A stretch of 26,069 nt of DNA from IMG/VR virus record IMGVR_UViG_3300020442_002765, positions 1-26,069 of that record; one strand, given 5' to 3'. Shown piece after piece: positions 1-23,287 of this stretch (position 1 is its first letter; each line of letters opens with the position of its first letter). The DNA comes from a virus. A program made the translations under genes and the position numbers. The notes under the pieces are model-generated. The model was not told where the DNA came from and ran no database searches. It saw only the letters and a list, made by a program, of their open reading frames with translations.

Positions 1-1
1 A

Positions 2-9000: not shown

Positions 9001-12000
9001 TGATTTTGGAACTGATTTTGACATCAGTAATGATGGTGAAGTATTAATTACAAATGTCACATATACTGATAAGCCAAATGTAGTTGCAGTTTACAGGAAT
9101 AATAACGGACAGTTTGGATGGAGTGCTGATATCAATGCACCTTCTACAGGAGCACAATTTGGAAAAAGTATTGCAATTGACACAGTTGGTGCAAGCATAG
9201 CAATAAGCGATCCGTTTGATGATAGTGTCAAGAATGATCAAGGAAGAGTATTTTTATATAGGTACAACTCAAAGCAAAATAATTGGTATTTGGATCAAAC
9301 CATTAGTAGTCCTAACAATGAATTAGGAGAATTGTTTGGTAACAAAATAGATTATGATGGAGAGCATTTAGTTGTTAACGGAAAAACTTCTGACAATGTA
9401 AAAAGCACTACTTTCGATAATAATTTATTAACTTTAGATAATGACTTTACACGCTTAGAGTTAAAAACGATTGACAGTGGTATTGTTTATGTATATGAAA
9501 ATATAGGCAATAAATTAGTGTACGGGCATAATTTGAATTATGAAAAAATTATTAATGATGTAGAATACCCTGTAGTTGATTTTGGAGAAAATTTAAAAGT
9601 AGATAAAAGCCATATATACATAGGTTTACCTGCATTGGCTTCTAGTCCAACAGAATACGGAAATGTTGTAAATTATAGAATTCCAAGTAATAAAATTTAT
9701 ACAAAAATTAGAGAGACCAAAGAAACTGTTGACTTAGATAAAATTAAAAGAATAATTCTGTATAATACAAAAACAAAATCTTTAATAAAATATTTAGATT
9801 ATATTGATCCTATACAAGGAAAAGTTGCAGGTGTAGCAGAAGAAAATTTAAGTTTTAAACTGTATTATGATCCAGCTAGTTATAACACAGCCTCAGACAC
9901 AAGTGTTATTTTAGACAGTTCAAATTCTTGGCATAAAAATCATGTAGGTGAACTATGGTGGGACCTTACAAATGCAAAATTCTATAATGCTTATCAAGGT
10001 GATGTATCTTTCAGTGCAAATAACTGGAGTACTTTATTTGATTCAAATACTATAGATATTTACGAATGGGTAGAATCTAAATATCTACCTAGCGAATGGA
10101 ATAATTTAGCAGATACTGATGAAGGATTAGCAGAAGGTATTTCAGGCACAGCAAGATATTCAGATACCGCTTACACTTTAAAAAGACAATACGATGAAAT
10201 ATCTCAAACATTTTCAAATTTATATTACTTTTGGGTCAAAGATAAAAAAACTATTCCAGATGTAGAAGGAAGGACTTTAAATGCAAATGATGTTGCCAAT
10301 TTAATTGCAAATCCTGCATCTAATAACTATGAATTTGTAGGACTATTTACAAATGATAGTTTTGCTGCATATAATATAGAAAAATATTTAGAAAATAATG
10401 ATGTTGCAATTGGTATTCAATGGTGGAATATTGACAAGAAAGATATTAACATACATAACCAATACCAAATTATTACAGACGGATTGCCTTCAAGCAAACC
10501 TAACAGAGATATAGAAGCAAAGTGGATAGATAGTTTAGTAGGTTATGATCTTTATGGTAGGCTTGTTCCAGATCCTTCTTTAGGTGAAAAACAAAAATAT
10601 GGTACTTTAAATTCTCCTAGACAAAGTTGGTTTGTAAATAGGTTAGAAGCATTAAAACAATTTATTGAACGCACAAATAGTGTCTTAGAAAAAGAATTAA
10701 TTGTTGACAGTAAAAGTTTGCTTACATTGAGTACACAAGATCCTGCACCTAGTTCAGTTACAAATATATTTGACACTTCTGTAGATACAAAAGCTGATTT
10801 AAATTTATTAGGAGTTGCTAAAGCAAAACAAGCAACTATGTCAGTTACAGTCAAAGATGGAAAAATTGTAGAGGCATTAATTTTAGATCCTGGAAGGGGA
10901 TATTTAACTGTACCAACTTATACAATTTCTGGTATAGGATCTGGAGCTGAATTTGAATTTACTTTAAATAGCGTAGGATCAATTTCAAATGTAGAAATTA
11001 TAAACCCAGGTGTAAATTATGACGAAAATACATCTGTTACAATTAGAAAGTTTACAGTCCTTGTAAATGCGGACGAAGAGATACAAGGCAAATGGGCTTT
11101 ATACGAGAGAAATTTTGCAACAAGTGATTGGAATAGGTTTAAAAGCCAGTCTTATAATACAACTTTATATTGGGATTACAAAGATTGGTATTTAACAGGC
11201 TACGGACCATATACTGAACCTAAATTTACAGTTGATTTGTCTTATGAATTATCTGGATTAGATGATAAAATAAATGATATTGTAAAAATTAATAATATAG
11301 GATCAGGAGGTTGGCTGTTATTACGAAAAATAGATAATCAATCAGATGTTGATTATACAGTAAATTATCAGACAGTTGGTAGGCAAAACGGAACAATATA
11401 TTTTAAACAAAGTTTATATAATACAAATATTTCATTTGACGGATTTGATGAAATTAGTTTTGATACTAAATTTTATGATAGTTTGCCAACGACAGAAACA
11501 AGAATTATTGCTGGTGCAATTAAGAACGATTTATTCATCGAAGAATTAGAAGTTGAATATAACAAGTTATTTTTTGCAAGTTTGCGTTATATTTTATCTG
11601 AACAACTTTATGTTGATTGGATGTTCAAAACAAGTTTCATAAAAGCAAAACATAATGTAGGTAGTCTTAGAAAAGACTTAACTTTTAATAATGACAACTT
11701 ACCTAGTTATCAAGATTATATAGATGAAGTTAAACCATTTAAGACAAAATTAAGAGAATATGTAAGTGGCTATGAAAAATTAGAACAAAGTAGTAATTTA
11801 AGCACTGACTTTGATCTTCCACCTAAGTATGACGAAATTTCTGAAAAAATAACAACCTCAAATTTAAAAGTTGTTAATGGACAAGTACAAGGTAGTGATT
11901 ATAATACGACTGTATATCCCGGAAAAAACTGGAAAGATAATTTAGGATTTATTGTTAAAGAAATCAAAATTGCAGATGGAGGGTCTGGATATACATCTCC

Positions 12001-15000
12001 GCCAGTGTTACAAATTACAGGAGGCGGCGGCTCCGGCGCTACAGCTATTACTAAATTAGGTTCTGGAGGAAAAATTACAAGTATAGAAGTGACAAATCCA
12101 GGCTCAGGCTATATTATTGCTCCTACTTTGACAATACAAGGTTCGTTGTCTGACAACGGAACTCCTGCAAAATTAAGTTTAATAATAGGACAATCGTTAG
12201 CAAGATCTATACATACAATTATGAAACTGGATAGAGTGAGCGGAAAATATTTTATTACAACTTTAGATGAGACTGAAAATTTTGTAGGTAGCGGATCTAA
12301 ATATATATTTGATTTACAATGGCCTTTAGACATGGCATCAGCTAATATTAATGTATCTGTAGCTGGTGAAGAATTATTAACAAGTGAATACAAATATGAA
12401 AATGTTTTAGACAGAACAAAAGGATATGACAGATATAAAGGTAGAATAACACTTACAATGCCGGCGGCTGTTAGTTCTGCTATAGTAGTAACTTATAAAA
12501 AAGATGTAAATTTACTGCAAGCACAAGATAGAATTAATTTAATCTATGATCCACAAACAGGACAGTATGATAAAGATTTAAGCCAGCTTATGGATGGTAT
12601 TGATTATGGTGGTGTAGAAGTTAAAAGTTTTGACTTTGGCGGACCGAGTGGTTGGGACACTGCTCCTTGGTATACAGGATCTTATGATACATACGACACA
12701 ACTTATGAAGATGAAAAGTTTCTTAAAAAGTATGTAGAGTTAACCTTTAGTCAAAATGTAACAGTAAGTAAGTCAAGCACTTTGGTTCAAGATAATACAG
12801 GCGCAACTGGTATTGTTATTGCAGATGTTACAAATTCAGACAAGGTGGTTTTACAAACTACATTTGACATGGCATTCAACACTTCAGATGAAATTAGAAG
12901 TGATGATAGTACGCTTATATTAGCAAGTAATGAACAATCTAAACCTTCTTCTGTAAGCAATTATGTTGAATTAACAAATAATTTAGAAAACAGTGTATTG
13001 TATAATTTTTATAAAAATGATATAAGATTAGATGATCCTGATTGGACAGATGACTCAACACAGTTTGCAAATCCTAATGCTGTAATGAGAAGTATTGAAG
13101 GAGATGGAACAACTAAAAGAGTAATTCTTCCTAATATATCTTACGCATCAACTGACAATGTTGTTGTGCGAAAATCTACAAGTGACGGCAGTTTTTTACC
13201 AACAAATATAGACTATGATACAGTTATAAAAGGCGGAGATTTAAATTATTCTAACGCAAGAGGACTAAATCCTGAAGATATAAATGTAGATGGTGATGGA
13301 TTTACAACCCCAACTAACAGTAAAGGACCAGATGAGTTAGTGCCAGGATGGGTTCAAGATACAGTAGATATAAAAGTTTTTGAAAGACCTACTAATGGGG
13401 CAAGTCACATTATAAGCAGAAACTATACAGGTGATGGAACAACAACTGAGTTCGATATTGGTACTGCACCAATTACTGAATCTTCTACTTTTGTTAAAGT
13501 AGACAACAATATTAAAAAGATTACTACTGATTACATAATAGACTTTACAAATAATAAAATAAAATTTACGTCAGCTCCAGCAAATAATTCAAGAATTAAT
13601 TTTGTTACTCTAGAATACAGTGGATCTAATATATTAGATATAGACGAATTTACAGGTGATGGATCAACAGTAGACTTTTTAACAAATATTAGATGGACAG
13701 ATAATTTGTCTAGTCTTATTACAATAGACGGAAAACAGATAGAACATGTTTTAATTAAAAGTGACAATAGTTTTATCGCACCAGGTAATGTAGTAATCAG
13801 TTTTGCTGAACCCCCTGCAATAGACAAAGTAATTAGATACGCAATTTTTGAAGGAACAGTACAAAATTATAGTAGCGTTGTACTTGACACTTTTGTCCAT
13901 GACGGAAGCACAGCAACATTTACACTGACTCAAAGTCCGTTTACGCAAGAACCTCATGAATGGTTTACAATAGTAAAATTAAGAAATAAAATATTAAAAG
14001 CTGGATACAGTGAAAGATTTAAGGTTACTGATACAAGAGAATATAGATTAAGGCTTTACCAAGTTCCGTTGGGTAGTGTTAGTAATAATCAGCTTCGTGT
14101 ATTTTTGAATAATACAGAACTTACTTTTATTGATGACTGGACATTTAGTGCGGCGGATGCTTTTGATCCATTGTTGCCTTTAGATCAACAAACGGGCAGC
14201 ACTATAGTTTTAAATGATAATGTAGGTTCTACAGGAGATGTTCTAAAAGTATACATCACTGGTTATGATGATAGCACACAAGACTCCGGCGGAGAATATA
14301 AATTTGGATATTTTGATACAAATGGAGATTTTGTAAAAACTCCAGGAGTTCTACATCTTGGCCCAGACTATGCCGAAGGTGACGTTGTAGAAGTTTATCA
14401 ATTTAGTAATCATGATAGCCAAGGTATAGATAGACAAAGTTTTGATGTAGTTGAAAAGACAGATTTGTCACCAGGAGCTTTAGTAGGCGCCCAACAATAT
14501 CAAGTTGATGGTAGCACTGCTGAAATTAATTTAGTAACTGCACTTGAACCAGAAAGGCAATATGCTATCTTTCAAAATAACACAAGAATAGACGATCCTA
14601 ATTTTGATGGCAGTACTGTAGTAGCCAACGTAAATGCTAAATGTAAAACTGTTGAAGTTGAATCCACAACAAACGTTTTAAATATATCTGATTTAGGTAT
14701 AATAACAAATGCAGGTGATGTAATTAAAATTGTAGAAGTAGGAGCAGATGTTGTTCCAGACGAAAGTACAGATGATTGGTATGAATCAAGATTACTTCGA
14801 AATGGAGTTGTTCCGTTGAATAGTCCTGCTGTAGATGATCAATATGTTTGGGTTGTTAGAAATGGCTTTTTATTAGATCCGTCCGTGGATTATTATCTGT
14901 CAGAAGATAAATTATCTGTCAAAATTTTAGGCGGTTTAGACGAAAATGATACTGTAGAAACTATACATTTTAGTAATACTCTTTTGAGAAACAAATATGG

Positions 15001-15775
15001 TTGGAGACAATTTAAAGATATATTAAATAGAACACACTATAAAATAATTAATGGTAAAGAAGATATTAGACTTACACATGATTTACACTGGTATAGCAAA
15101 GAAATTATTCTAGAAAACACAGAATCTTTACCAAAACCTAACTCTCAAGATGGAAAACCAGGTGTCATATTTGTAGAAGGTGAACGCATAGAATATTTCA
15201 AAAAAGATAAACTAAAACTTACACAACTTCGTAGAGGCACATTGGGAACTGGTGTAAAAAATACATATACTAATGGGACAGAAATATATAATCAATCTGC
15301 TACTTTTACAATGCCATATAAGGATGAAACATTGACAACTGTGTTTACAGCTACTGGAGATAGCAGTGGGTTTACTTTAGATTTTGACCCAACAACATTG
15401 GCAGAGCAATATTCTGCTACTACTGGTAGAACCATAGATGCAACAGCATTTTTTGAAGTTTTTGTCGCTGGCAAGAGATTAAGAAAGACAACTTTAGAAT
15501 CTTATGAATTAAATACTTCAGCTAGGACAAATTATGCAACTACTGACGAAAAAATTTCGCAGGATTCTCCGGAAGGAGATGTAACTTTACCAGCAGAATT
15601 TACAATTAGAGACAGAAATGAACTTGTATTGTTACAGGAACCGGCAGAAAACGTTAAAGTAATTGTAGTAAGACGGGTAGGACAAACTTGGAATGATGCA
15701 GGGAAAACGTTAAGTAATAGTGATACGAATGTAGCAAGATTCTTGCGATCTACGCAGGTAGACTTGCCAAGATAA
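2..15775 (+). CDS. Giant modular virion structural protein (tail/fibre-associated), 5' partial
   Basis: The frame is open from base 2 to TAA at 15773-15775, giving at least 5,257 residues. No in-frame ATG lies in the first 286 bases. A TTG at 287 is not credible as a start, because the upstream codons read as good protein of the same style (SWNPNIDWDKF, EYYWLPTGP). In order it shows a cupredoxin-like domain, conserved segments including RPHTHPWEMLGF and FLYWTTQNWG, CBM5/12-like modules, a split FG-GAP-like propeller, several internal repeat families and a C-terminal tail (VEGERIEYF, QLRRGTLGTG, RFLRSTQVDLPR). From memory, these segments recur in giant structural proteins of T4-like marine phages; this was not searched. 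Likely role: an extended tail or baseplate-attached adhesin or scaffold on the virion surface. No catalytic motif is obvious. Its place ahead of fibre genes supports a structural role. The exact function is unknown. Confidence 0.85.
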   Translation, partial: TIIKDNLGNVNFYADYNDYINKLKILSTNTDNHSDVNSQEYYSWNPNIDWDKFVNFREYYWLPTGPITISVFGQTKEVQSTYSIEIKDNAGDPTYLFSPDGLTNNPTLTLYKGQTYRFSVNTPNYPISFVTSISFTPGRLPDQETTNTSLIYSNGITKYNLDGTISNDIWIDEGTIEFTVPDNAPEFIYYISKDDPNLSGLIRINDITENTEINVDSEIIGKQTYTTSTGVDLSNGMKCRFLGNVTPEKYASGEWYVEGVGDKIQLIKQEDLEVSGLFTDDITVEFDNQEFDYYPFSEALGFPSSKDYIVINRASKDGNLWSRYNRWFHRSVIEKSAEVNGQIANIDQASRASRPIIEFEKGLKLNNFGTFSKPNVNLIDTFTVDAFSYVEGAEGYNIDGINLTEGMRVLFTNDPDPLVKGRIFKVNFVKINNKTQISLIEESDTVPQLNETVLITQGDLNRGKYFYYDGAVWKEGQSKTSVNQQPKFDLFDDNDFSFSDKSKYESSLFAGSNIFSYTIGSGTNDPELGFPLTYRSIENSGDIVFNFNLLNESFTYTLNNALKSKNTDTGFLRKYSDRTNYTLQNGWSKASKDSTQNVIRQYTANANQSKFALDMYSDTSFIDSLWIRVFVNNKLKIKDLDFSITQDPNNESSVEFVQALSKDDVVIIKTRSNVPKNRNGFYELADNLEKNPLNKNINQFTLGEVNDHLRTIVEESDVFTGNFPGASNLRDIGNLSTLGKKFLKHSSPINLSLYHILDETSNVAKALSSARYDYGKFKRLFLETANTLGFDGPVRLHVDRILEELVKDKTNSMPYYFSDMIPLGGNKINSIEIEDADQQFFALSSTFQLDSPSTKAVQIYHNGLQLVEGKDYTFNSEGFAVVTATKQVGDTIEIIEYENTNGSYVPPTPTKLGLYPKFQPEIYTDDTVQNTAPDNPSGAYKFYGVAGPNQNGAGKLGWFYPLYATLSEAQARDTELGGTGQAHLHTFVGLQRQFYMPNTGSGHGLQDTQDYDEWVEGSPVIQGHDGSKVTAYKDYRDNLLLDLERRIYNNLKVQYDPTVFDIHEISKGLYRNNGIKKTDLDNSMISEFLSWLRLVDLEYTKHNYFDRQNQFTFNYRNTRYANTTEDCPGWWRQVYINAYDTDRPHTHPWEMLGFTIKPTWWETQYGSAPYTSNNLPLWEDLEAGIIRQPTFKIDKKYLRPGLINNIPVDAEGKLLSPNDSRLSLNLNILDADNSFSFGDGGPVETAWRRSSEYPFALIRSFVINRPSKTFATGFDRIRQKRNLADQIVYGDTGKQIILENIVYPTSIDDDNQVFTSGLINYIFDYQTALARDNLSKYKENLSNIRNQIGFKIGGFTDKNKFKLILDSRTPLNQGNVFVPDENYSIFLNSSFPTKEVTYSGIIVEKQVEGYYIKGYDNTNPVLNYFPPIPKTNDPLINVGGVSEPFVTWAENKTYVSGSVVKSGSSFYRTKETHTSTTSFDASFFVQIPSLPTVGGRDAFLRKDFAQELQRINYGHLYENIQDVVDFLLGYGRYLESLGFTFSQFREESYDVLDWQTSVREFLYWTTQNWGAGTVLSLSPGADKINFTSNYETPSNVLETFFGYSILKADGKVLPSTSLKFAKDNDNNFSVRTIDTEDGIYHIKIPLVSKEHVCLIDNYTVFGDVIYDVEPGYRQERIKVLGYRTSDWNGSLNIPGFIYDDAKITEWEAWKDYSIGDLVKYKEFYYSAKYKTPGTATFNDDDWARLESAPKAGLYANFDYKTNQFADFYDLDSDNFDSEQQRLAQHLIGYQKRKYLENIINDDVSQYKFYQGFISDKGTKNALTKLFDALASADKDSLEFYEEWAVKDGQYGASESFDEVEYKLEEKEFNLKPQPILLTDSITGQETDLIYRIPSYKTYLKSKNYNHKPFPTKLITKGYTKDSGYVNPEDVDFIVGQYSNLLSLDIDKILNGQYVWVGNVDFNWDVYQYVDTNYRIDSIITGTDSFTLKLNETPNDVKVGDILGIVQITSTSFDPLDSSQEVTFSTSTAKGFYKVKSVMLDKIEFESDDPPADFENADGIVTKFESVRATDIANANQIAERAMELGFKIWIDDEGNQKWTVIENTGKFDLLDTIGSKQTTPTNFGVAKSVDERNVILAIGAPEEENGKVYIYRRASESTNWALFQVLLPSPDICASGQKFGSSIELSKDGKYIIIGSPNASNVKTPFKGTYSGPTDYSAGDIVLYNQAYWSADNAIEGSEANIQFNSFANYNQIIYELNLDEENSEDIDSLLAGNFPFTNVTADHFLVRIPTAMYQGIGLEDEIFLHWNKLTNANQTQIDLVERQPFDGTIPYISKEYLETNHTVAEKIDTVLYVDQITNPPQIGDTVTTQGATATVVYTFSVGGSMTIYVNNTNGVFPLSNSLFIAGNDFIGEYESVAPSDTTFDASTQLGGYVFIRSSNPYTVGTTNKDSGRGLVVKNVVTDSSASNNYYYNSLDTATATVDSLNTDHSLVQVLSFQGAPGPGGSNDAFTPPYWVARAPKALTDTLSAGDTLEFYWNKLKKTVTTLTVTNPVTVVAGEILSQDNTAATCIVFESTTASNTIKVENVTGSFSTVDFLSGSQSGPLLVRPNSAPIVGTLIQPSNINLDYSLTNKEQTVFDVWDGYIDFRVTKTLDGEPFEPIPRYQYIGSNWVDTGAGQIVRDVTTGAEAEVMFYKRNFRDITIYVKNITGSWSKGDLFGDNAEIEFLALPGSQGFSGPNPDVFGRPDIYTIDRVMGQIQQTSLGYTPAGIGKLIVFDAATTINVPTTFEIKDVEYWMYKSSTVLGIPRLANVPGRNNLDWTEVYKVSATTNGNASSYTNEGMVSIFERFGQQYSVIHNIVSPQRKTNHYFGSKVALKLKDNLYRAFIGALDLVSTSNPGKIYFIKNGTENNNIYNWDYAKNKKFQGQFDPARNYYIGDIVYNDGSLFNATTNLTPGPFDATFWDSTDDMIDYVGFIPNDTGLKVINDSSLDSTIELTNMNDFGTDFDISNDGEVLITNVTYTDKPNVVAVYRNNNGQFGWSADINAPSTGAQFGKSIAIDTVGASIAISDPFDDSVKNDQGRVFLYRYNSKQNNWYLDQTISSPNNELGELFGNKIDYDGEHLVVNGKTSDNVKSTTFDNNLLTLDNDFTRLELKTIDSGIVYVYENIGNKLVYGHNLNYEKIINDVEYPVVDFGENLKVDKSHIYIGLPALASSPTEYGNVVNYRIPSNKIYTKIRETKETVDLDKIKRIILYNTKTKSLIKYLDYIDPIQGKVAGVAEENLSFKLYYDPASYNTASDTSVILDSSNSWHKNHVGELWWDLTNAKFYNAYQGDVSFSANNWSTLFDSNTIDIYEWVESKYLPSEWNNLADTDEGLAEGISGTARYSDTAYTLKRQYDEISQTFSNLYYFWVKDKKTIPDVEGRTLNANDVANLIANPASNNYEFVGLFTNDSFAAYNIEKYLENNDVAIGIQWWNIDKKDINIHNQYQIITDGLPSSKPNRDIEAKWIDSLVGYDLYGRLVPDPSLGEKQKYGTLNSPRQSWFVNRLEALKQFIERTNSVLEKELIVDSKSLLTLSTQDPAPSSVTNIFDTSVDTKADLNLLGVAKAKQATMSVTVKDGKIVEALILDPGRGYLTVPTYTISGIGSGAEFEFTLNSVGSISNVEIINPGVNYDENTSVTIRKFTVLVNADEEIQGKWALYERNFATSDWNRFKSQSYNTTLYWDYKDWYLTGYGPYTEPKFTVDLSYELSGLDDKINDIVKINNIGSGGWLLLRKIDNQSDVDYTVNYQTVGRQNGTIYFKQSLYNTNISFDGFDEISFDTKFYDSLPTTETRIIAGAIKNDLFIEELEVEYNKLFFASLRYILSEQLYVDWMFKTSFIKAKHNVGSLRKDLTFNNDNLPSYQDYIDEVKPFKTKLREYVSGYEKLEQSSNLSTDFDLPPKYDEISEKITTSNLKVVNGQVQGSDYNTTVYPGKNWKDNLGFIVKEIKIADGGSGYTSPPVLQITGGGGSGATAITKLGSGGKITSIEVTNPGSGYIIAPTLTIQGSLSDNGTPAKLSLIIGQSLARSIHTIMKLDRVSGKYFITTLDETENFVGSGSKYIFDLQWPLDMASANINVSVAGEELLTSEYKYENVLDRTKGYDRYKGRITLTMPAAVSSAIVVTYKKDVNLLQAQDRINLIYDPQTGQYDKDLSQLMDGIDYGGVEVKSFDFGGPSGWDTAPWYTGSYDTYDTTYEDEKFLKKYVELTFSQNVTVSKSSTLVQDNTGATGIVIADVTNSDKVVLQTTFDMAFNTSDEIRSDDSTLILASNEQSKPSSVSNYVELTNNLENSVLYNFYKNDIRLDDPDWTDDSTQFANPNAVMRSIEGDGTTKRVILPNISYASTDNVVVRKSTSDGSFLPTNIDYDTVIKGGDLNYSNARGLNPEDINVDGDGFTTPTNSKGPDELVPGWVQDTVDIKVFERPTNGASHIISRNYTGDGTTTEFDIGTAPITESSTFVKVDNNIKKITTDYIIDFTNNKIKFTSAPANNSRINFVTLEYSGSNILDIDEFTGDGSTVDFLTNIRWTDNLSSLITIDGKQIEHVLIKSDNSFIAPGNVVISFAEPPAIDKVIRYAIFEGTVQNYSSVVLDTFVHDGSTATFTLTQSPFTQEPHEWFTIVKLRNKILKAGYSERFKVTDTREYRLRLYQVPLGSVSNNQLRVFLNNTELTFIDDWTFSAADAFDPLLPLDQQTGSTIVLNDNVGSTGDVLKVYITGYDDSTQDSGGEYKFGYFDTNGDFVKTPGVLHLGPDYAEGDVVEVYQFSNHDSQGIDRQSFDVVEKTDLSPGALVGAQQYQVDGSTAEINLVTALEPERQYAIFQNNTRIDDPNFDGSTVVANVNAKCKTVEVESTTNVLNISDLGIITNAGDVIKIVEVGADVVPDESTDDWYESRLLRNGVVPLNSPAVDDQYVWVVRNGFLLDPSVDYYLSEDKLSVKILGGLDENDTVETIHFSNTLLRNKYGWRQFKDILNRTHYKIINGKEDIRLTHDLHWYSKEIILENTESLPKPNSQDGKPGVIFVEGERIEYFKKDKLKLTQLRRGTLGTGVKNTYTNGTEIYNQSATFTMPYKDETLTTVFTATGDSSGFTLDFDPTTLAEQYSATTGRTIDATAFFEVFVAGKRLRKTTLESYELNTSARTNYATTDEKISQDSPEGDVTLPAEFTIRDRNELVLLQEPAENVKVIVVRRVGQTWNDAGKTLSNSDTNVARFLRSTQVDLPR
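239..625 (+). other. Cupredoxin-like domain in the giant protein, copper ligands apparently missing
   Basis: The segment has the layout of the cupredoxin-like domains common in marine phage surface proteins: a strand containing LTLYKGQTYRFSVN, then a NYPISF stretch, then a final hairpin EFTVPDNAPEFIYYIS ending in SGLIRI. In copper-binding relatives the central stretch usually carries His (GHPF type) and the last hairpin Cys plus His (YYxCxxH type). Here these places read NYP, and YYIS followed by DDPN. That suggests a structural rather than metal-binding version. The fold call is by pattern only. Confidence 0.55.
2783..3058 (+). other. Probable inserted domain with AHLHTF/FYMPN motif in the giant protein
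   Basis: This roughly 92-residue segment contains GWFYPLYATLSEAQARD, GGTGQAHLHTF and QRQFYMPN. The pattern (PLY, A..A..D, HxHTF, YMP) occurs in many marine phage fibre and structural proteins as a small stand-alone module. It sits between LGLYPKFQPEIYTDDT and VIQGHDGSKVTAYKD. I believe those two are close neighbours in related giant proteins, so it reads as an insertion. The HxH pair could bind metal, but this is unproven. Confidence 0.45.
4334..4470 (+). repeat. CBM5/12-like module, copy 1
   Basis: The segment TWAENKTYVSGSVVKSG...FYRTKETHTS follows the CBM5/12 (chitin-binding type 3) layout: W, a short gap, Y..G..V, then an aromatic pair and a closing aromatic/acidic segment. Such modules often bind polysaccharide in phage fibres. 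This copy has S in place of the usual D after G, and FFVQI in place of the final Trp. Confidence 0.45.
5108..5250 (+). repeat. CBM5/12-like module, copy 2
   Basis: This is the best of the four copies: WEAWKDYSIGDLVKYKEFYYSAKYKTPG ending in DDDWARL, split here as WEAWKDYSIGDLV and KYKEFYYSA. It has the W..Y..GD.V.Y...YY.A and closing DW.RL pattern of CBM5/12-type modules, a known carbohydrate-binding fold. Binding is inferred from aromatic placement only. Confidence 0.6.
6623..6717 (+). repeat. CBM5/12-like module, copy 3, at the start of the propeller insertion
   Basis: The sequence GTYSGPTDYSAGDIVLYNQAYWSA carries the Y..GD.V.Y...YW.A core of CBM5/12-like modules; the first part reads GTYSGPTDYSAGD. 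It lies directly after the second FG-type propeller motif and begins the long insertion separating motifs 2 and 3. The closing DW segment is not clear, so it may be incomplete. Confidence 0.45.
6844..7627 (+). repeat. Internal duplication: two about 31-residue units inside the propeller insertion
   Basis: Residues at 6844-6936 (ADHFLVRIPTAMYQGIGL then EDEIFLHWNKL) and at 7535-7627 (PPYWVARAPKALTDTLSAGD then TLEFYWNKL) align with no gap over about 31 positions. They share a V-R/A-R-x-P-x-A core, a D-x-(I/L)-x-F/L pattern and an identical WNKL end. The pairing marks a duplicated domain; its function is unknown. Confidence 0.6.
8774..8902 (+). repeat. CBM5/12-like module, copy 4, between propeller motifs 3 and 4
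   Basis: The sequence FDPARNYYIGDIVYNDGS followed by LFNATTNLTPGPFD and TFWDST shows the Y..GDIV.....F.A...........FW pattern. It is placed in a loop between FG motifs 3 and 4, so it could display an extra carbohydrate-contacting surface from the propeller. Confidence 0.5.
10859..12144 (+). repeat. Paired GSGYT-type glycine-rich repeats
   Basis: Two pairs of half-repeats are seen. The first, at about 10859-11048, has ILDPGRGYLTVPTYTISG and IINPGVNYDENTSVTI. The second, at about 11953-12144, has IADGGSGYTSPPVLQITG and VTNPGSGYIIAPTLTIQG. The common unit is (I/V)xxPGSGYxxxPxxxIxG, followed by a GSGA linker. This type of repeat is common in phage and bacterial surface proteins and suggests a repetitive beta-structure. 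The Gly-rich linker gives a short GC-rich island near 12022-12045. Confidence 0.65.
13081..14600 (+). repeat. Run of GDGST-type fibre modules
   Basis: Repeated starts of the form (Y/F)xGDG(T/S)TxxF are seen: EGDGTTKRVIL (about 13098), YTGDGTTTEFDIG (13424), FTGDGSTVDFLTN (13650), FVHDGSTATFTLT (13891) and YQVDGSTAEINLV (14500). Each is followed by a V/I-x-V-(N/D)-N strand and a dY.id or similar hairpin (for example VKVDNNIKKI). This is a widespread phage fibre and tail beta-module. The tandem placement suggests an elongated shaft near the C-terminus of the giant protein. Confidence 0.6.
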
Positions 15776-15780
15776 ATAAC
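15771..15780 (+). promoter_or_regulatory. T4-late-like promoter motif (GATAAATAAC)
   Basis: ATAAATA at 15772-15778 matches the core of the T4-type late promoter (TATAAATA), recognised by RNA polymerase carrying the phage gp55-like sigma and stimulated by the sliding clamp. It overlaps the stop codon of the giant gene and lies 17 bases before the next ATG. The same GATAAATAA string recurs at 20377. The leader would be very short, with a TAGGAT ribosome-binding site at 15785-15790. Confidence 0.55.
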
Positions 15781-15795
15781 AATGTAGGATAAAAA

Positions 15796-16410
15796 ATGAC
15801 AGATGTATTAAAAGATAAAAGTGGTATACTTATAGAAGGGCATATAAAAATATATGACCCTAAAAGTAACGAAATTTTTGTGGATAAACGAAATGCTATA
15901 CATTATGAGAATATGAGTGTAGCACTAGCAAGAAGTATTGCAAACCAAGGACAAGGTTGGATCTACGAAATGAGTTTCGGAAACGGCGGTACAAATGTTG
16001 ATCCTACAGGAATTATTACATATTTAACACCTAATTCTACAGGTACAAATGCAAGTCTTTATAATCAAACTTATTCAAAAGTTGTAGATGACAGGAGTAT
16101 CAACAATGTTGATCCGGTGAGAAATAAAATTGATATAAGACATGTAAGCGGAACAAATTACACTGATGTGTTAGTAACGTGCTTGTTAGATTATGGTGAA
16201 CCGTCAGGCCAAGATGCATTTGATACAGCGTCAAGTGCCGCTAGTTTATATGTATTTGATGAATTAGGTTTACGTGGCTGGAATCCCGAAGGTACAGGTG
16301 ATTTACTAACACATGTTATTTTCCATCCTGTACAAAAAAGTTTGAATAGATTAGTACAAATAGATTATACTGTAAGAATTCAAAGTCTTTCAGGCTTAGT
16401 TGAGGAATAA
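15796..16410 (+). CDS. Virion structural protein, tail/baseplate type (204 aa)
   Basis: ATG at 15796 follows a TAGGAT Shine-Dalgarno sequence with good spacing. The protein has no signal peptide or membrane segment and looks beta-rich. Recognisable stretches are EGHIKIYDPKSNEIFVDKRN, WIYEMSFGNGGT, DPTGIITYLTPN and the C-terminal HVIFHPVQKSLNRLVQIDYT. I associate these with a conserved, functionally uncharacterised structural protein that follows the giant protein in T4-like marine phages; this is memory, not a search. Position between the giant gene and the fibre genes suggests a baseplate or fibre-attachment component. Four bases separate it from the first fibre gene, so they are probably co-transcribed from the late-type motif at 15771. 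Confidence 0.7.
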   Translation: MTDVLKDKSGILIEGHIKIYDPKSNEIFVDKRNAIHYENMSVALARSIANQGQGWIYEMSFGNGGTNVDPTGIITYLTPNSTGTNASLYNQTYSKVVDDRSINNVDPVRNKIDIRHVSGTNYTDVLVTCLLDYGEPSGQDAFDTASSAASLYVFDELGLRGWNPEGTGDLLTHVIFHPVQKSLNRLVQIDYTVRIQSLSGLVEE

Positions 16411-16413
16411 TAG

Positions 16414-18429
16414 ATGGCATACACCATACCATATACAGATCAAGCTAATAAAGGCACAATTACGATTGAAGATAATACTATCAATCAAGAAACTTCCTTA
16501 AAACTGCCAGGAAGGAATACAACTGCATATGGAAGTAGTATTGCAGAAAATTTTTTGCATTTACTTGAAAATTTTGCAAGTGCTACAGAACCCGGAACAC
16601 CTGTTGAAGGCCAATTATGGTATGATTCTACACCCGGTGTAGAACAATTAAAAGTTTATGATGGTACAAATTGGGTTCCGTCAGGAAATCTTAAAAAAGC
16701 AACATCTGAACCTCAAGCTGCACAAAGTTTGACAGGCGATTTATGGGTAGATACAGATAATTTACAACTATATCTCTACACAGGATCAGGATGGGTATTA
16801 GTAGGTCCAGAATTCAGTGATGGATTAATTACAGGCGCATCACCAAAAGTAATTACTGGAACAGATGATTCGAGCTATAATGTTCTACAGATAGATATAT
16901 CAGCACAACCAGTAGCAATAATTGCTAGCCAACAATTTACACCTAAAGTAAAAATTCCTGGATTTACAACTATTGTTCCAGGTTTAAATTTAAGTGTGAA
17001 TAATATCACAGGCGATGGCGCACCAAAATATATTGGAACAGCAGAGAAAGCAGAAAGTTTAATAGTAGCAGGAAACACTGTTGCCGCAGGAAATTTTTTA
17101 AGAAGTGATACAACAAGCACAACATCATTTCCTATAAATGTGCAAAATAATAATGGTATTAATTACGGTATAAACGCTGAAATGAATATAGGTGTTGTTG
17201 GAAATGCAGGAGTTTTCCAGCATAACATTGCCGGTTCTAGCATGGACTTTAAAGTAAAGAATGACGGTATTTTAAAAACTGCTCTTAGAGTAGATAGTAA
17301 TTTGAGAATAGGAATAAACAACATTGCTCCTGACGAAGCATTAGATGTGACGGGAAATATACTTGCAAGCGGTACTATAAGAAACACTGACACAACAAAT
17401 AGCACTAGTTTTAGTACAGGTGCTATAAGAACTGCTGGCGGAATTGGTATTGCACAAAATTTAAATGTAGGCGGAAATGTTGATGTTACAGGTACAGTTA
17501 CTACTAGGAATATAGAACCGGAACAAAACAATTTAAGAAATGTAGGATCTACAACTTTAAAATATGCAAACATGTATGCAACAACATTTGTAGGTAATTT
17601 AACAGGTAATGTTAGTGGTACTGTAAGCGGAAGAGCAGGATCATCAGATAAATTAACATCGGCTACTACATTTAGATTAACAGGCGATGTATCAGCAGAA
17701 GATATTATTTTTGATGGACAAACTGGCGGATCACTAAAGACTTTTACTACGGCAATAAGCAACCAAATTGTTGCAGGTAAAACCCAAGTTGCTACAAGTT
17801 TTGGAGATGACGAACTTCTACTTAATAGAACTTCAGGAGATACAGGACTAAAGAAAATTTCAGTGCAGAGTTTACTGAATGCAGTACCAATTACGCCAGT
17901 GGGGTTGATTTCACCATTTGCAGGAGCAGCGGCACCTTCGGGGTGGTTACTATGTGACGGGCAAGAAGTATCTAGAGCAGCTTATACACAATTATACAAT
18001 GTGATTGGAACAACTTTTAAGGCTAATCCTGCAGAAGGATATTTTGCAGTGCCAGATTTAAGAGGCAGATTCTTGTTGGGTGCAGACAATATGGGAGGAT
18101 CAGCCGCAAACGTAGTCACAGACATAGCCGCTGATGTTATAGGTGCAAAAAGCGGATCAGAAACGGTCACTATACAAATTGAAAACTTACCCGAACACAA
18201 ACATGATTTGAGAGGTGATAGTGGTGATCAGTATTATGTAATTAGAGACGTCTCTGGGACACCAAATGATAATGAAGCTATTATATATGATGCACCAGCG
18301 GCTACAGGAGCAGGACAAGCATTACCAGATAGTGGCGGAATTTTAACAACAGAAACATTAGGTACTGCAATGAATGTAATGAATCCATTTATGACCCTAA
18401 CTTATATAATTTACGCAGGAACAAGTTAA
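16414..18429 (+). CDS. Tail fibre protein 1 with phage tail-collar domain (gp12-like end), 671 aa
   Basis: ATG follows a GAGGA site at 16402-16406. Residues 1 to about 230 are the N-terminal part shared with the next two fibre genes (LLENFASA, GQLWYDS, GDLWVDT, WVLVGPE, ending near YIGTAEKAESL). The middle has fibre-type repeats (FSTGAIRTAGGIGIAQNLNV, LDVTGNI, NMYATTFVGNLTGNV). Residues about 490-560 form a Phage Tail Collar domain (PF07484 type): PVGLISPFAG, PSGWLLCDGQ, DLRGRFLLGAD. Then come NLPEHKHD (about 591) and a typical NPFMTLTYIIYAG end. Collar plus HxH matches the T4 short tail fibre gp12, whose HxH histidines hold zinc in the trimer. Likely a receptor-binding fibre; trimerisation and metal binding are inferred. 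Confidence 0.85.
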   Translation: MAYTIPYTDQANKGTITIEDNTINQETSLKLPGRNTTAYGSSIAENFLHLLENFASATEPGTPVEGQLWYDSTPGVEQLKVYDGTNWVPSGNLKKATSEPQAAQSLTGDLWVDTDNLQLYLYTGSGWVLVGPEFSDGLITGASPKVITGTDDSSYNVLQIDISAQPVAIIASQQFTPKVKIPGFTTIVPGLNLSVNNITGDGAPKYIGTAEKAESLIVAGNTVAAGNFLRSDTTSTTSFPINVQNNNGINYGINAEMNIGVVGNAGVFQHNIAGSSMDFKVKNDGILKTALRVDSNLRIGINNIAPDEALDVTGNILASGTIRNTDTTNSTSFSTGAIRTAGGIGIAQNLNVGGNVDVTGTVTTRNIEPEQNNLRNVGSTTLKYANMYATTFVGNLTGNVSGTVSGRAGSSDKLTSATTFRLTGDVSAEDIIFDGQTGGSLKTFTTAISNQIVAGKTQVATSFGDDELLLNRTSGDTGLKKISVQSLLNAVPITPVGLISPFAGAAAPSGWLLCDGQEVSRAAYTQLYNVIGTTFKANPAEGYFAVPDLRGRFLLGADNMGGSAANVVTDIAADVIGAKSGSETVTIQIENLPEHKHDLRGDSGDQYYVIRDVSGTPNDNEAIIYDAPAATGAGQALPDSGGILTTETLGTAMNVMNPFMTLTYIIYAGTS

Positions 18430-20369
18430 TGAGCTATAGAATTAACAGAACAGACGGTGAACTTTTAATAGACCTTACTGATGGTATTATTGATACTACC
18501 ACTACAGATATAACCTTGATTGGAAAAAATTATAAAGGGTTTGGTGAATATTTTAATGAAAACTTTGTAAAGCTATTAGAAAATTTTGCAAGCACTGCAC
18601 AACCTGCAAATCCAATGGTAGGACAACTTTGGTTTGATAAGCAAGATTTAAGATTGAAGGTTTATGATGGTGTTTCTTTTAGGGCAGCATCTGGTTCAAT
18701 TGTTGGTAGTACTCAGCCTGGTAATTTAACTACAGGCGATCTTTGGATAGACAATTTAAACAATAAATTATACTTATTTGACGGTACAGATTTAGTGTTA
18801 GTAGGACCTAATTACGATGCCGGCCAAGGAAAAACAGGTTTTGAAACAGCAAGTCAATTAGATACAACTGATGTACAAAGAACAATACTAAAATTATTTC
18901 TAGGTGGTACACTTGTAGGTATTTACTCACCTGAAACTTTTATTATACCTACTGACTATTCTATACCAGGGCTTAGTGAAGACCCAGATGATACATTTAC
19001 GCCTAAAAGGCAAAAATTATACAAAGGTTTCAATATAGCGGATTCAAGCCAAGAAACAGCTACAACAGGATTTTGGTGGAGAGGCACAGCAACAAATGCT
19101 AAAAAACTTGTTGATGATGCAGGAAATGAAAGATCTGCAGAAAACTTTCTGCCTACAGATGGTAACGGCTCAACTACTGGTAGTATAAGGATAAAAAATG
19201 CTGCAGGATTAAGTGTAGGTGTAGGTGATACAGAATTTGGAATTTTAAAAGTATCAGGCACTACCACTATTTTAGAAACACAACAAAGCAATTCAGATTT
19301 AGCTATTAGAGTAAGAACAGGATCTAGTTTCTTAAATGCATTTTATGCAGATGCTTCAGAACAAAAAGTTGGTATTTTTACTACAAACCCGTCTAGTACT
19401 TTAGATGTAAATGGTGATGTAAAAGTCCAAGGTAGCTTAACTGTAGCGGGTGATTCAACTTTTATAAATGCTTCAACTTTACGTGTAGAAGATAAAAATA
19501 TTGAATTAGGTTTGTTAGATGATAGTACAGAAGGTGATGACACAGCAATAGATGATGGCGGCATCATACTTAGAAGTATTAATGGATCCAAGGATTTAAC
19601 TTGGAAGCAAGCAACAGCATCTTGGACAAGTAATCAAGATATTGATTTAGAACAAGGTGTAAACAATGCCAATCCTGGTTACAGAATAAATGGCAATAAA
19701 ATTTTAACAGAAACTGAAATTGCGTCTTCGGTTACTACTGCTACTGGATTGGTGAATATTGGTACACTTGCAGATATTACTATTGACCAGATTAAATTAG
19801 ATGGTCAAACTATCAGTAGAGTAGGAGGTTCTGGATTAACAGTTGATGCAAATGGTGATACAAGTTTCAATAACAATAAAATTGTTGATGTAGCAACACC
19901 GGTAGGCGGAAATGATGCGGCTAATAAATCTTATGTTGACACACAAATAAGTGCAAGTTCATTAATTGTTCCAATTGATGTAACAGGATTAACAGATCCT
20001 AATGATATTTTGACAGGTGATGGACCTGTAAACAGTATTAGAAATATTTTACAATTATTAAGAAATGCATCAGATACAGAAAACGGCACAGTAGCGAAAG
20101 TTCTTGCAACATCCTATAGTAATAGTACAGTTTCAGGAATAACTGTATCTGTATCTACAGGTAGTGGAGCAACATTACAAAAATCAGTAGTGTCTGTTAG
20201 AGATGCGGCTGATACGGGGTCTGAAAGTGTTATACAGGACATTGCCGCAAGCAATACTGCTAGTGGTAGTGTTAGTTTAACAGCTACAAGATATATTTAC
20301 GAGTTTACAAACGTAGCAGGAACGTGGACATACGGTTCTGGTACAAGGACATTGGTGACAGTTACTTAG
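18429..20369 (+). CDS. Tail fibre protein 2 (646 aa), paralogue with a different C-terminus
   Basis: The start overlaps the previous stop by one base (TAATG), with AGGAA at 18417-18421 as ribosome-binding site, so it is translationally coupled to fibre 1. Residues 1 to about 230 match the shared N-terminal part (NENFVKLLENFAST, GQLWFDK, GDLWIDN, LVLVGPN, WWRGTATNAKKL). The middle holds a fibre module seen in many marine phages: VQGSLTVAGDSTFIN, LRVEDKNIELGLLDD, DGGIILRS (about 19393-19650). Near the C-terminus NNKIVDVATPVGGNDAANKS and YVDTQI form the classic tail-fibre 'ANKxYVD' segment, often followed by the trimerising tip. It has no collar domain. Probably binds a different receptor, or forms a different fibre segment, from fibre 1. 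Confidence 0.8.
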   Translation: MSYRINRTDGELLIDLTDGIIDTTTTDITLIGKNYKGFGEYFNENFVKLLENFASTAQPANPMVGQLWFDKQDLRLKVYDGVSFRAASGSIVGSTQPGNLTTGDLWIDNLNNKLYLFDGTDLVLVGPNYDAGQGKTGFETASQLDTTDVQRTILKLFLGGTLVGIYSPETFIIPTDYSIPGLSEDPDDTFTPKRQKLYKGFNIADSSQETATTGFWWRGTATNAKKLVDDAGNERSAENFLPTDGNGSTTGSIRIKNAAGLSVGVGDTEFGILKVSGTTTILETQQSNSDLAIRVRTGSSFLNAFYADASEQKVGIFTTNPSSTLDVNGDVKVQGSLTVAGDSTFINASTLRVEDKNIELGLLDDSTEGDDTAIDDGGIILRSINGSKDLTWKQATASWTSNQDIDLEQGVNNANPGYRINGNKILTETEIASSVTTATGLVNIGTLADITIDQIKLDGQTISRVGGSGLTVDANGDTSFNNNKIVDVATPVGGNDAANKSYVDTQISASSLIVPIDVTGLTDPNDILTGDGPVNSIRNILQLLRNASDTENGTVAKVLATSYSNSTVSGITVSVSTGSGATLQKSVVSVRDAADTGSESVIQDIAASNTASGSVSLTATRYIYEFTNVAGTWTYGSGTRTLVTVT

Positions 20370-20376
20370 GATTTGC

Positions 20377-20387
20377 GATAAATAAAC
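20377..20387 (+). promoter_or_regulatory. T4-late-like promoter motif (GATAAATAAAC)
   Basis: ATAAATA at 20378-20384 sits in the 35-base gap between fibre genes 2 and 3 and repeats the GATAAATAA string found at 15771. A strong AGGGG ribosome-binding site follows at 20394-20398, six bases before the ATG. It suggests that fibre 3 can be transcribed apart from fibres 1 and 2. Confidence 0.55.
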
Positions 20388-20404
20388 TTATATAGGGGTA
20401 ATAA

Positions 20405-21913
20405 ATGGCGTATACTATTAATAGATTTGATACAAGTCAGTTAACTGTAGTTGAAGATGGCACTATTGATCAAACTACAGATTTAAAACTTGTTGGAAAA
20501 AATTATGCTGGCTATGGTGAAATACAAAATGAAAATTTTGTGTTTTTATTAGAAAATTTTGCTGGAAATAACCAGCCACCTAAACCAGTAAGTGGACAGT
20601 TGTGGTTTGATAGTTCAAGTAGTAAATTAAAATTTTATGACGGAACAAAATGGAGAACCACTGGTGGAGCTGAAATAAGTGCTACAAGTCCTGCAGGATT
20701 AGCAGAAGGTGATTTTTGGTGGGACACAAATAACGAACAACTATATGCATATAATGGTACAAGTTTTATCCTCGTCGGACCCCAAGGCGCAGGTGATGCT
20801 GTAACACAATTTCAAAGTAGAACAATAAGAGATAATGGCGGCACAAACAGGGCAGTAATTGTTTCTATTATCAATGATGAAGTTATTCATATTATAAGCA
20901 GTATTGAATTTACTATTGGTTCTGAGGACGCTACAAATTATCCAGGATTTGATGTTGTTAGACAAGGCTTAACATTAAAAAATACAATTAACTCTACAGG
21001 AGGCGTAACAAGCACACCACATAGATTTTTTGGAACAGCATCTAACGCAGATAAATTAGGTGGTGTTAGTGCTTCAAACTATATTCAAACAGGTTTAGCG
21101 AATTTTAACACCTTGGTTGAATTCAGCGATTTTGGACTTGCTGTAGGTGATTCTAACGATTTAGTGATTAAAATTGTAGATGATGACAAAGGATTAATTG
21201 CAAATGAACAAGGACAACAAATTTTTGTTCAAGTACAAGATAGTACGGCATCACAAAAAATGCCACTTAGAGTCGAATCAGGGGCTTTACTACCAGGTTA
21301 TAGTAATTTATCAGCATATACTGGCACAAATGTTACAAATATTGGAAGTACAACACATGGATTTGGTACAGTGTATGCAACTACATTCAGTGGATCTGCA
21401 ACAAGTTCTCAAACACTAGATGTAGGTGGTACTGGAAGAGCTGCAAGTACAAGCTCAACAGCAAATACTATTGCCGCTAGAAATAGTTCCGGTGATTTAT
21501 ATGCACAAGTATTTCATGGTATTGCAACACAGGCCCAATATGCTGACTTGGCAGAAAAATATAAGGCTGATAAAGATTATGAACCAGGAACTGTATTGAT
21601 TTTTGGTGGAGAAGAAGAAGTTACAGAATGTAAAGCATTTTGTGATATTAGACTAGCAGGAGTTGTGTCAACAGAACCGGCACATTTAATGAATGACAGT
21701 ATTGACGGTGTAGCTATTGCACTTAAAGGAAGAGTGCCTTGTAAGGTTGAAGGACCTGTTAAAAAAGGTGACATAATTGTAACCGGACCAACACCAGGAG
21801 TTGCAACCGGATTAACAAAAGATAGTTCTATGCCTAATAGTTTATGTGTCGTTGGTAAAAGTTTAGAAGATTCAGATGACTCCGGAATACGTTTAATTGA
21901 AGTAGCTGTTTAA
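20405..21913 (+). CDS. Tail fibre protein 3 (502 aa) with Peptidase_G2-like C-terminal domain
   Basis: ATG follows AGGGG at 20394-20398. The N-terminal part of about 230 residues is shared with fibres 1 and 2 (NENFVFLLENFAGN, GQLWFDS, GDFWWDT, FILVGPQ, RFFGTASNADKLGG). A segment NIGSTTHGFGTVYATTF also matches fibre 1. The C-terminal 130 residues start at QYADLAEKYKADKDYEPGT and include RLAGVVSTEPAHLMN, GRVPCKVEGPVKKGD and a GIRLIEV end. They resemble the intramolecular-chaperone/auto-processing domain Peptidase_G2 (PF11962), found at the end of some phage appendages, where it trims itself off after trimer folding. That similarity is from memory and the cleavage site is not identified. Likely a third receptor-binding fibre on the same baseplate socket. 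Confidence 0.8.
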   Translation: MAYTINRFDTSQLTVVEDGTIDQTTDLKLVGKNYAGYGEIQNENFVFLLENFAGNNQPPKPVSGQLWFDSSSSKLKFYDGTKWRTTGGAEISATSPAGLAEGDFWWDTNNEQLYAYNGTSFILVGPQGAGDAVTQFQSRTIRDNGGTNRAVIVSIINDEVIHIISSIEFTIGSEDATNYPGFDVVRQGLTLKNTINSTGGVTSTPHRFFGTASNADKLGGVSASNYIQTGLANFNTLVEFSDFGLAVGDSNDLVIKIVDDDKGLIANEQGQQIFVQVQDSTASQKMPLRVESGALLPGYSNLSAYTGTNVTNIGSTTHGFGTVYATTFSGSATSSQTLDVGGTGRAASTSSTANTIAARNSSGDLYAQVFHGIATQAQYADLAEKYKADKDYEPGTVLIFGGEEEVTECKAFCDIRLAGVVSTEPAHLMNDSIDGVAIALKGRVPCKVEGPVKKGDIIVTGPTPGVATGLTKDSSMPNSLCVVGKSLEDSDDSGIRLIEVAV

Positions 21914-21920
21914 ATAAATA
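21914..21920 (+). promoter_or_regulatory. T4-late-like promoter motif (ATAAATA)
   Basis: ATAAATA directly follows the fibre 3 stop codon, in the context TAAATAAATAAC, and shares the ATAAATAAC string with the motif at 15771. It lies 24 bases before the next ATG, which has an AAGGA ribosome-binding site at 21933-21937. The call rests on the match to the T4 late core and on its position. Confidence 0.5.
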
Positions 21921-22951: not shown

Positions 22952-23287
22952 ATGGATACACAATTACAACAAGCACTTGATTTTTCTCAATATATGACAA
23001 CTTTAAATAATCAAAAAAGATTACTATGGGAAAAATATCAAGAAAATTTAATATACTATTACAACGGAGGAAAATTTACTATCACTCCTGAACTAATAGC
23101 CTATTGTCATTCAGCTATTTTAGAACATGTTGTGTTAATAGATGATAATCAACTACCTGTAAGAGTAGAATTACAAAAGTTTTTATTTGACATCCGTGTT
23201 CAGTTTGATAAAGCATCTTTATCTTATTATGAAGAATATTCAAAATTAAAATCTAAAAGAAGTGTTGAGAAAATTCTTAATGACTAA
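22952..23287 (+). CDS. Small uncharacterised helical phage protein (111 aa)
   Basis: First gene after the sigma70-type promoter, with an AGGAGAAG ribosome-binding site. The protein looks largely helical: LDFSQYMTTLNNQKRLLWEK at the start, a YYYNGGKFTITPELIAY turn-and-helix, LIDDNQLPV in the middle, and a charged C-terminal helix (EEYSKLKSKRSVEKILND). I have a memory of short unknown proteins in T4-like marine phages with the same NGGxFxxTPELI and LIDxNxxP signature, but no function is known to me. No membrane segment or nucleic-acid-binding motif is seen. Its last eight bases overlap the following gene, so the two are probably translationally coupled. Confidence 0.7.
   Translation: MDTQLQQALDFSQYMTTLNNQKRLLWEKYQENLIYYYNGGKFTITPELIAYCHSAILEHVVLIDDNQLPVRVELQKFLFDIRVQFDKASLSYYEEYSKLKSKRSVEKILND

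Follow-up and report, generated by a model that had tools for sequence, protein, structure and literature searches.

Three neighbouring fibre-like genes in the viral contig analysed here (26,069 nt, hereafter the window) probably descend from an ancient in-place triplication in aquatic Rak2-like jumbo myophages. Their products would form three permanent, different trimers at the baseplate periphery, arranged by a logic like that of T4 gp9, gp10, gp11 and gp12; we put the probability of this reading at roughly two in three. The genes share an N-terminal domain, keep a constant order and constant distal types, lie beside virion or baseplate genes and have separate transcription signals. Because more than 100 related fragments hold them in one order, they look like permanent tail parts and not like interchangeable heads. 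We refer to them as slots 1, 2 and 3 (Table 1).

Table 1. Features of the three-gene locus and its surroundings (positions in the window).
Feature	Position	Strand	Remarks
Giant virion structural protein	287..15775	+	at least 5162 aa; phrog_10938, E 1e-180
ATAAATA ahead of 204-aa gene, slot 1 and slot 2	15772..15778	+	T4-late-promoter-like core; at gene junction
204-aa virion protein, constant upstream partner of the triad	15796..16410	+	phrog_11259, E 1e-68
Slot 1 (P0001)	16414..18429	+	N-domain, fibre, T4 gp12-like receptor-binding end
Slot 1 shared N-terminal domain	16414..17064	+	residues 1-217
Slot 1 Collar domain	17902..18075	+	residues 497-554; PF07484, E 1.6e-20
Slot 1 H-x-H (H595, H597)	18196..18204	+	invariant among orthologues
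Slot 2 (P0002)	18429..20369	+	N-domain, variable fibre with ANKSYVD motif
Slot 2 shared N-terminal domain	18429..19112	+	residues 1-228
Slot 2 distal part	19629..20366	+	residues 401-646; fastest-changing portion of the triad
ATAAATA ahead of slot 3 alone	20378..20384	+	late-promoter-like core; at gene junction
Slot 3 (P0003)	20405..21913	+	N-domain, short stalk, C-terminal intramolecular chaperone
Slot 3 shared N-terminal domain	20405..21058	+	residues 1-218
Slot 3 ADLAE motif	21542..21556	+	residues 380-384; predicted self-cleavage A380/D381
Slot 3 Peptidase_G2-like C-terminal chaperone	21545..21910	+	residues 381-502; PF11962 in orthologues and phi29 gp12 fold
ATAAATA of the next gene, closing off the slot 3 unit	21914..21920	+	late-promoter-like core; at gene junction

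The shared N-terminal domain

The three open reading frames are neighbours on the same strand and encode proteins of 671 (P0001), 646 (P0002) and 502 (P0003) amino acids. They are closely packed: 3 nt separate the upstream gene for a 204-aa protein from slot 1, slots 1 and 2 overlap by 1 nt, and slots 2 and 3 are 35 nt apart. The original prediction, that about 230 N-terminal residues are homologous in all three, is borne out by blastp (E values of 6.5e-32 for P0001/P0002, 5e-39 for P0001/P0003 and 2.7e-42 for P0002/P0003) and by shuffling, with Z scores of 34-55 for the N-terminal parts versus 2-7 for the remainder of the proteins. The pairwise alignment proposed along with it confirms the homology, with 34-41% identity among the slots over the first ~220-230 residues. 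A second short motif is common to slots 1 and 3 (P0001 373-435 and P0003 309-372, 38% identity, E 6e-5).

The N-terminal domain is the most conserved portion of all three proteins. Conservation is strongest and widest in residues 1-90, and the part common to distant relatives consists of the first ~80-90 residues only. In many phages it is followed by distal ends that are unrelated; across 15 large contigs, the triad cluster is the only place where the full domain occurs. A Pfam search of the three proteins placed it in no family, and a PDB sequence search with it returned no match at E 10. Structure prediction of the N-termini was also proposed originally. In the models, residues ~90-140 of slot 1 resemble the trimerisation domains of collagen XV/XVIII (VIA Z 5.2-5.7; slot 3, 3.6-3.9), a weak lead, and residues 1-60 are poorly modelled (pLDDT 40-55 for slot 3), their low confidence in the models being compatible with a segment that would fold only in a trimer or complex.

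Three different distal ends

Beyond the common part the proteins end differently, as had been described: in a Collar domain and an H-x-H region (P0001), in an end with an ANKSYVD motif (P0002) and in a Peptidase_G2-like fold (P0003). In slot 1 the C-terminal Collar domain is followed by the H-x-H region, an arrangement like that of the T4 short tail fibre gp12; PF07484 is found in all 63 slot 1 orthologues, across which H595 and H597 are likewise invariant. The tail matches the receptor-binding region of gp12 in a PDB profile search (1ocy, E 6.5e-7), by hhalign (95.6%), by Foldseek (probability 1.00) and in a VIA superposition on 1ocy (Z 9.1, rmsd 1.7 across 75 residues). Slot 1 is thus predicted to be a gp12-like irreversible receptor binder. 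The distal part of slot 2 has a mean pairwise identity of 0.30-0.46 and, apart from its motif, is without assignment; it would be the most variable tip and the likeliest host-range element.

The distal end of slot 3 has the features of an intramolecular chaperone, namely PF11962 in orthologues, the phi29 gp12 fold and conserved cleavage-site residues. PF11962 (Peptidase_G2) matches 35 of 61 slot 3 orthologues (best E 3.1e-10), and P0003 itself falls below the Pfam threshold for this family. The model superposes on pre-mature phi29 gp12 (3suc) with Z 13.3 and on the C-terminal fragment (3gqh) with Z 12.9; in the latter alignment, model residue 381 pairs with phi29 residue 692, the start of the aligned fragment according to the PDB entry. 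The ADLAE motif, including D381 and E384, is invariant in 61 of 61 orthologues and aligns with S691-D692-F-A-E695 of phi29 gp12, the residue preceding the cut being Ala and not Ser. These phi29 residues are, we assume, the catalytic ones in phi29 self-cleavage. From the 381/692 pairing and the conserved A-D-L-A-E against S-D-F-A-E, we predict that slot 3 probably cleaves itself between A380 and D381. The protein would then fold with the aid of a phi29 gp12-type chaperone that removes itself, leaving a short trimer of ~380 residues per chain. The original prediction had counted the Peptidase_G2-like end as a distal fibre end; judging by fold and motif, this part is probably a cut-off folding chaperone and not the distal tip of the mature fibre.

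Genomic neighbourhood and relatives among isolates

The source of the window is a marine virus of bacteria, and a Rak2-like jumbo myophage judging by the gene for the 204-aa protein and the adjoining giant gene, which match those of RaK2, 121Q, Atu_ph07 and PA5oct. The giant gene is truncated at its 5' end, as its frame is open to the contig start, and its product is the probable scaffold beside the triad. Homologues of the 204-aa protein occur in 60 isolate records, nearly all of them from jumbo phages that are Rak2-like or akin to these. In five isolates (Phosso, Atu_ph07, PA5oct, Vibrio 2.275.O and SCTP-2) the giant gene, the 204-aa gene and one or more N-domain genes stand next to each other or almost so, and gp6/gp25-like wedge genes, if annotated, come after the giant gene. 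In RaK2, 121Q and CBB the 204-aa and N-domain genes adjoin and the giant gene lies some 6 kb off. The window thus has the parts of a Rak2-like structural module (phrog_10938, phrog_11259 and N-domain genes) close together; gp6/gp25 are seen only in the relatives, beyond the 26-kb contig.

The number of N-domain copies varies: there is one each in RaK2, 121Q, CBB, Vibrio 2.275.O, SCTP-2, Atu_ph07 and Phosso, two in PA5oct and six in XacN1 and in CM1, the 204-aa gene being located elsewhere in the last two. Three copies are no general requirement, then, as several jumbo phages have only one. PA5oct gp357, gp358 and gp359 are all annotated ESI-MS/MS in the record, and the PA5oct homologues of the giant and 204-aa proteins are MS/MS-annotated; gp358 ends in Gp10_C (E 1e-23) and gp359 has a slot-3-type end. 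CBB_230, the counterpart of the 204-aa protein, was detected in virions by mass spectrometry, as were CBB_231 and CBB_236 (PMC5259590). The main texts of PMC10253068 and PMC3622015 do not name the RaK2 homologue ORF065, no text link between this phage and the freshwater 'moraphage' lineage was found, and no clade members were identified among cultured phages.

Two predicted late transcription units

ATAAATA, which we take to be the core of a T4-like late promoter, occurs 3 times in the window versus ~21 expected, always on the coding strand and always at a gene junction. In a survey of 156 loci it lies ahead of the 204-aa gene in 131 of 132 and at most 80 nt upstream of slot 3 in 120 of 141, and it is found before slot 1 in none of 140 and before slot 2 in none of 146; as some contigs are near-duplicates, these counts are not independent. 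The pattern therefore points to two late units, one running from the 204-aa gene through slots 1 and 2, the other consisting of slot 3. One late transcript would yield the 204-aa protein and the products of slots 1 and 2, and a separate one that of slot 3.

Anchoring and arrangement in the virion

The first ~90 residues would anchor each trimer on the baseplate, as conservation and synteny suggest, with the giant protein and/or the 204-aa protein as the likeliest partners. That the common base is a docking domain, as first proposed, gains from its top conservation, its fusion to unrelated ends and the virion or baseplate genes beside it in the jumbo isolates; set against this is the low confidence of the models at residues 1-60. 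Mixed fibres in one virion, the companion proposal, find a parallel in the mass spectrometry of relatives (PA5oct gp358 and gp359; CBB_231, PMC5259590), with the qualification that PA5oct has two domain-bearing proteins, not three. Docking and mixed incorporation of all three proteins are plausible, and one virion would hold them as separate components, not as alternatives. We add tentatively, as a rather unlikely possibility, that one anchor fold fills distinct but equivalent baseplate sites with three trimers, one of them self-cleaving and with its own late promoter, occupancy being set by transcription and cleavage.

Stacking is a serious rival, because T4 gp9 and gp10 have N-terminal homology to each other and gp12 is mounted coaxially on the gp10 N-terminal domain (PMC3004832). 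By analogy, only one of the three proteins would dock on the baseplate, and the other two would attach to that one through their N-domains, in a branched or stacked complex. The branched fibres of CBA120 and RaK2 do assemble via N-terminal domains (PMC10253068), and slots 1 and 2 share a unit with the 204-aa gene while slot 3 is in another. We nevertheless consider this arrangement unlikely: the single copies of RaK2, 121Q, CBB, Atu_ph07 and Phosso show that no paralogue is needed for the domain to work, and Pfam finds no T4gp10-like platform domain in any of the three. It is less probable again that the shared part is a general trimerisation module and not an anchor. The collagen-like stretch fits such a role, but the strongest conservation lies outside it, in residues 1-90, and in the jumbo isolates examined the domain is found again and again beside one set of virion genes.

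Constant order and distal ends across related contigs

Related loci were collected in two sets, one fetched by slot 3 and a second chosen only by the upstream 204-aa gene, since loci fetched by slot 3 are possibly biased. In both sets the order slot 1, slot 2, slot 3 (N1C1-N2C2-N3C3) is constant, in ~125 related viral contigs altogether. Of 81 slot 3-fetched loci, 72 hold the triad in this order, the others being interrupted by contig ends or broken reading frames. The tails belong to one family in 118 of 118 slot 1 proteins, 111 of 111 slot 3 proteins and 115 of 119 slot 2 proteins; those of slot 2 diverge faster than the tails of slots 1 and 3, and tail identity tracks N-domain identity. Three short slot 2 proteins (L098, L056, L135) and a short slot 1 protein (L099), which may reflect frame breaks or assembly errors, were not counted as swaps. 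In a tree of 67 N-domain sequences each slot is monophyletic (support 94/87, 100/100 and 98/91). The two PA5oct copies pair together on long branches; for gp358 and gp359 as orthologues of slots 1 and 3, AU p is 0.145 and 0.064.

At the DNA level, the best-conserved stretch of the repeats has 65-70% identity between slots, and exact tracts common to two slots are no longer than 11-16 nt in the window and 20 nt across 125 loci. The repeats thus appear too diverged for ready homologous recombination. Constant order and tails, an N-domain tree separated by slot and exact tracts of at most 20 nt together indicate that no shuffling of the ends takes place. The original prediction had envisaged that specificity might be exchanged when the repeats recombine; this finds no support on any of the three counts and is rejected within the clade. 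Comparison of related genomes for gain, loss or swapping of ends, suggested at the same time, did reveal gain by duplication, in the form of four-gene arrays, and no tail swap among the 118 slot 1 and 111 slot 3 proteins.

The fourth gene is found in five contigs (L100/L101, L109, L133 and L173; two are near-identical), where it has an N-domain sister to that of slot 3 and a new distal end; new fibre copies do arise by duplication. Three small open reading frames, one of them 2OG-Fe(II) oxygenase-like, come after this gene in L101 and L133. That the three genes are an interchangeable specificity cassette, with three N-domains that are equivalent at a single docking site and distal ends recombined between the repeats to change host range, could draw on these arrays, on the many distal ends fused to the N-domain across phages, on the six copies of XacN1 and CM1 with their partly unlike tails and on the variable slot 2 tails, but with unexchanged slot 1 and slot 3 tails, no slot jumping in the tree and only short exact tracts between diverged repeats it is largely refuted within this clade and very improbable.

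Implications

If a single anchor fold indeed carries three trimers, these phages would have a fixed three-component tail tip derived from one duplicated adaptor, without a T4-type gp9/gp10 anchor. The lineage may also represent a separate case, alongside T4, of a baseplate periphery that arose through gene duplication. The reading gives testable roles to three unannotated genes that recur in uncultivated aquatic jumbo phages. We note that fibre genes in tandem, even when built on one base, are not necessarily a host-range switch: two of the ends each keep to a single family across the clade as sampled, and variation is confined to the middle one. Host-range prediction should concentrate on slot 2 and, where there is one, on the fourth gene.

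Comparison with known systems

Paralogous fibre or baseplate genes that lie in tandem and share an N-terminal part are already known (T4 gp9-12, the CBA120 tailspikes, the RaK2 fibres); for a fixed set of three slots, one of them probably self-cleaving, we found no description in the searchable literature. The T4 proteins gp9, gp10, gp11 and gp12 are likewise encoded by tandem late genes right after large wedge genes (genes 9-12) and differ in their C-terminal functions, and the collar and receptor-binding end of gp12 recurs in slot 1. In contrast to T4, there are three long fibre-like proteins instead of gp9, gp10 and gp11, and slot 3 has a phi29-type, probably self-cleaving end. No sequence similarity to our profiles was found for the N-terminal parts of gp9 and gp10, with single sequences as T4 templates; hhalign against these gave 1.7% for gp10 and 0.2% for gp9, with matches outside the N-domain. 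The likeness to T4 therefore consists in the logic and the slot 1 tail.

Ackermannviridae carry several receptor-binding proteins per virion, the tailspikes TSP1-4, which assemble via conserved N-terminal parts and form stable subtypes (PMC8432352). The likeness to these tailspikes (CBA120 type) lies in the conserved N-terminal parts, whereas T4gp10-like XD domains and enzymatic beta-helices were not found in the three proteins: the XD domains have no Pfam match, and CBA120 TSP4 resembles the models weakly (Z 2.6, Foldseek probability 0.05). Receptor modules are sometimes exchanged in Ackermannviridae, but not here.

The phi29 gp12 preneck appendage is alike in the fold of its C-terminal chaperone and in the D-x-x-E cleavage motif, although its chaperone is carried by a podovirus beta-helical tailspike and the one described here by the short stalk of a myophage protein. 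Atu_ph07 gp176 and Phosso XYS97449.1 occupy the equal position and combine the N-domain with a slot-3-type C-terminus, but as single copies. PA5oct (Arenbergviridae, Wroclawvirus) shares the synteny over gp357-gp359, the giant protein, the 204-aa protein and two N-domain proteins, one with a gp10_C end and one with the slot 3 chaperone end; it differs in having two copies and not three, with no slot 2, and in a common part of only ~90 aa.

Junction motif

The motif ATAAATA, the core of the T4-like late promoter, is strongly avoided in the window (3 copies versus approximately 21 expected), and each copy lies at a gene junction. It is a conserved T4-late-like promoter signal, recurring over 156 related loci.

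Features of the window
Feature	Position	Strand	Description
Giant ORF	1-15775		>5160 aa
ATAAATA	15772-15778	coding	gene junction
ATAAATA	20378-20384	coding	gene junction
ATAAATA	21914-21920	coding	gene junction
Two adjoining ORFs	23262-24936		283 and 276 aa, near-equal length

Fibre genes in related loci

The clearest instance within the clade of a distal end being lost or replaced is the second fibre gene of loci L143 and L151, which encodes only 368-373 aa and differs in its distal end. Five loci (L100, L101, L109, L133 and L173) harbor an additional gene with the shared N-terminal domain and a new distal end, placed between the second and third fibre genes; in L101 and L133 it is followed by three small ORFs, one of them 2OG-Fe(II) oxygenase-like. 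Xanthomonas phage XacN1 (L093, 19049-28105) carries six such N-domain genes in tandem; according to the XacN1 paper, a homologue of tail fibres was not detected in this phage. CM1 (L092, 16068-24745) has the same layout, with distal ends that differ in part.

Flanking reading frames

The ORF pair downstream of the fibre genes has no Pfam family and only weak phrog matches (phrog_33568, phrog_1903); by eye, both appear putatively glycosyltransferase-like. The giant ORF contains FG-GAP repeats and weakly matches the T7-fibre N-domain. Its frame is open to the contig start and the gene is therefore truncated; it exceeds its homologues in isolates in length (3300-4500 aa).
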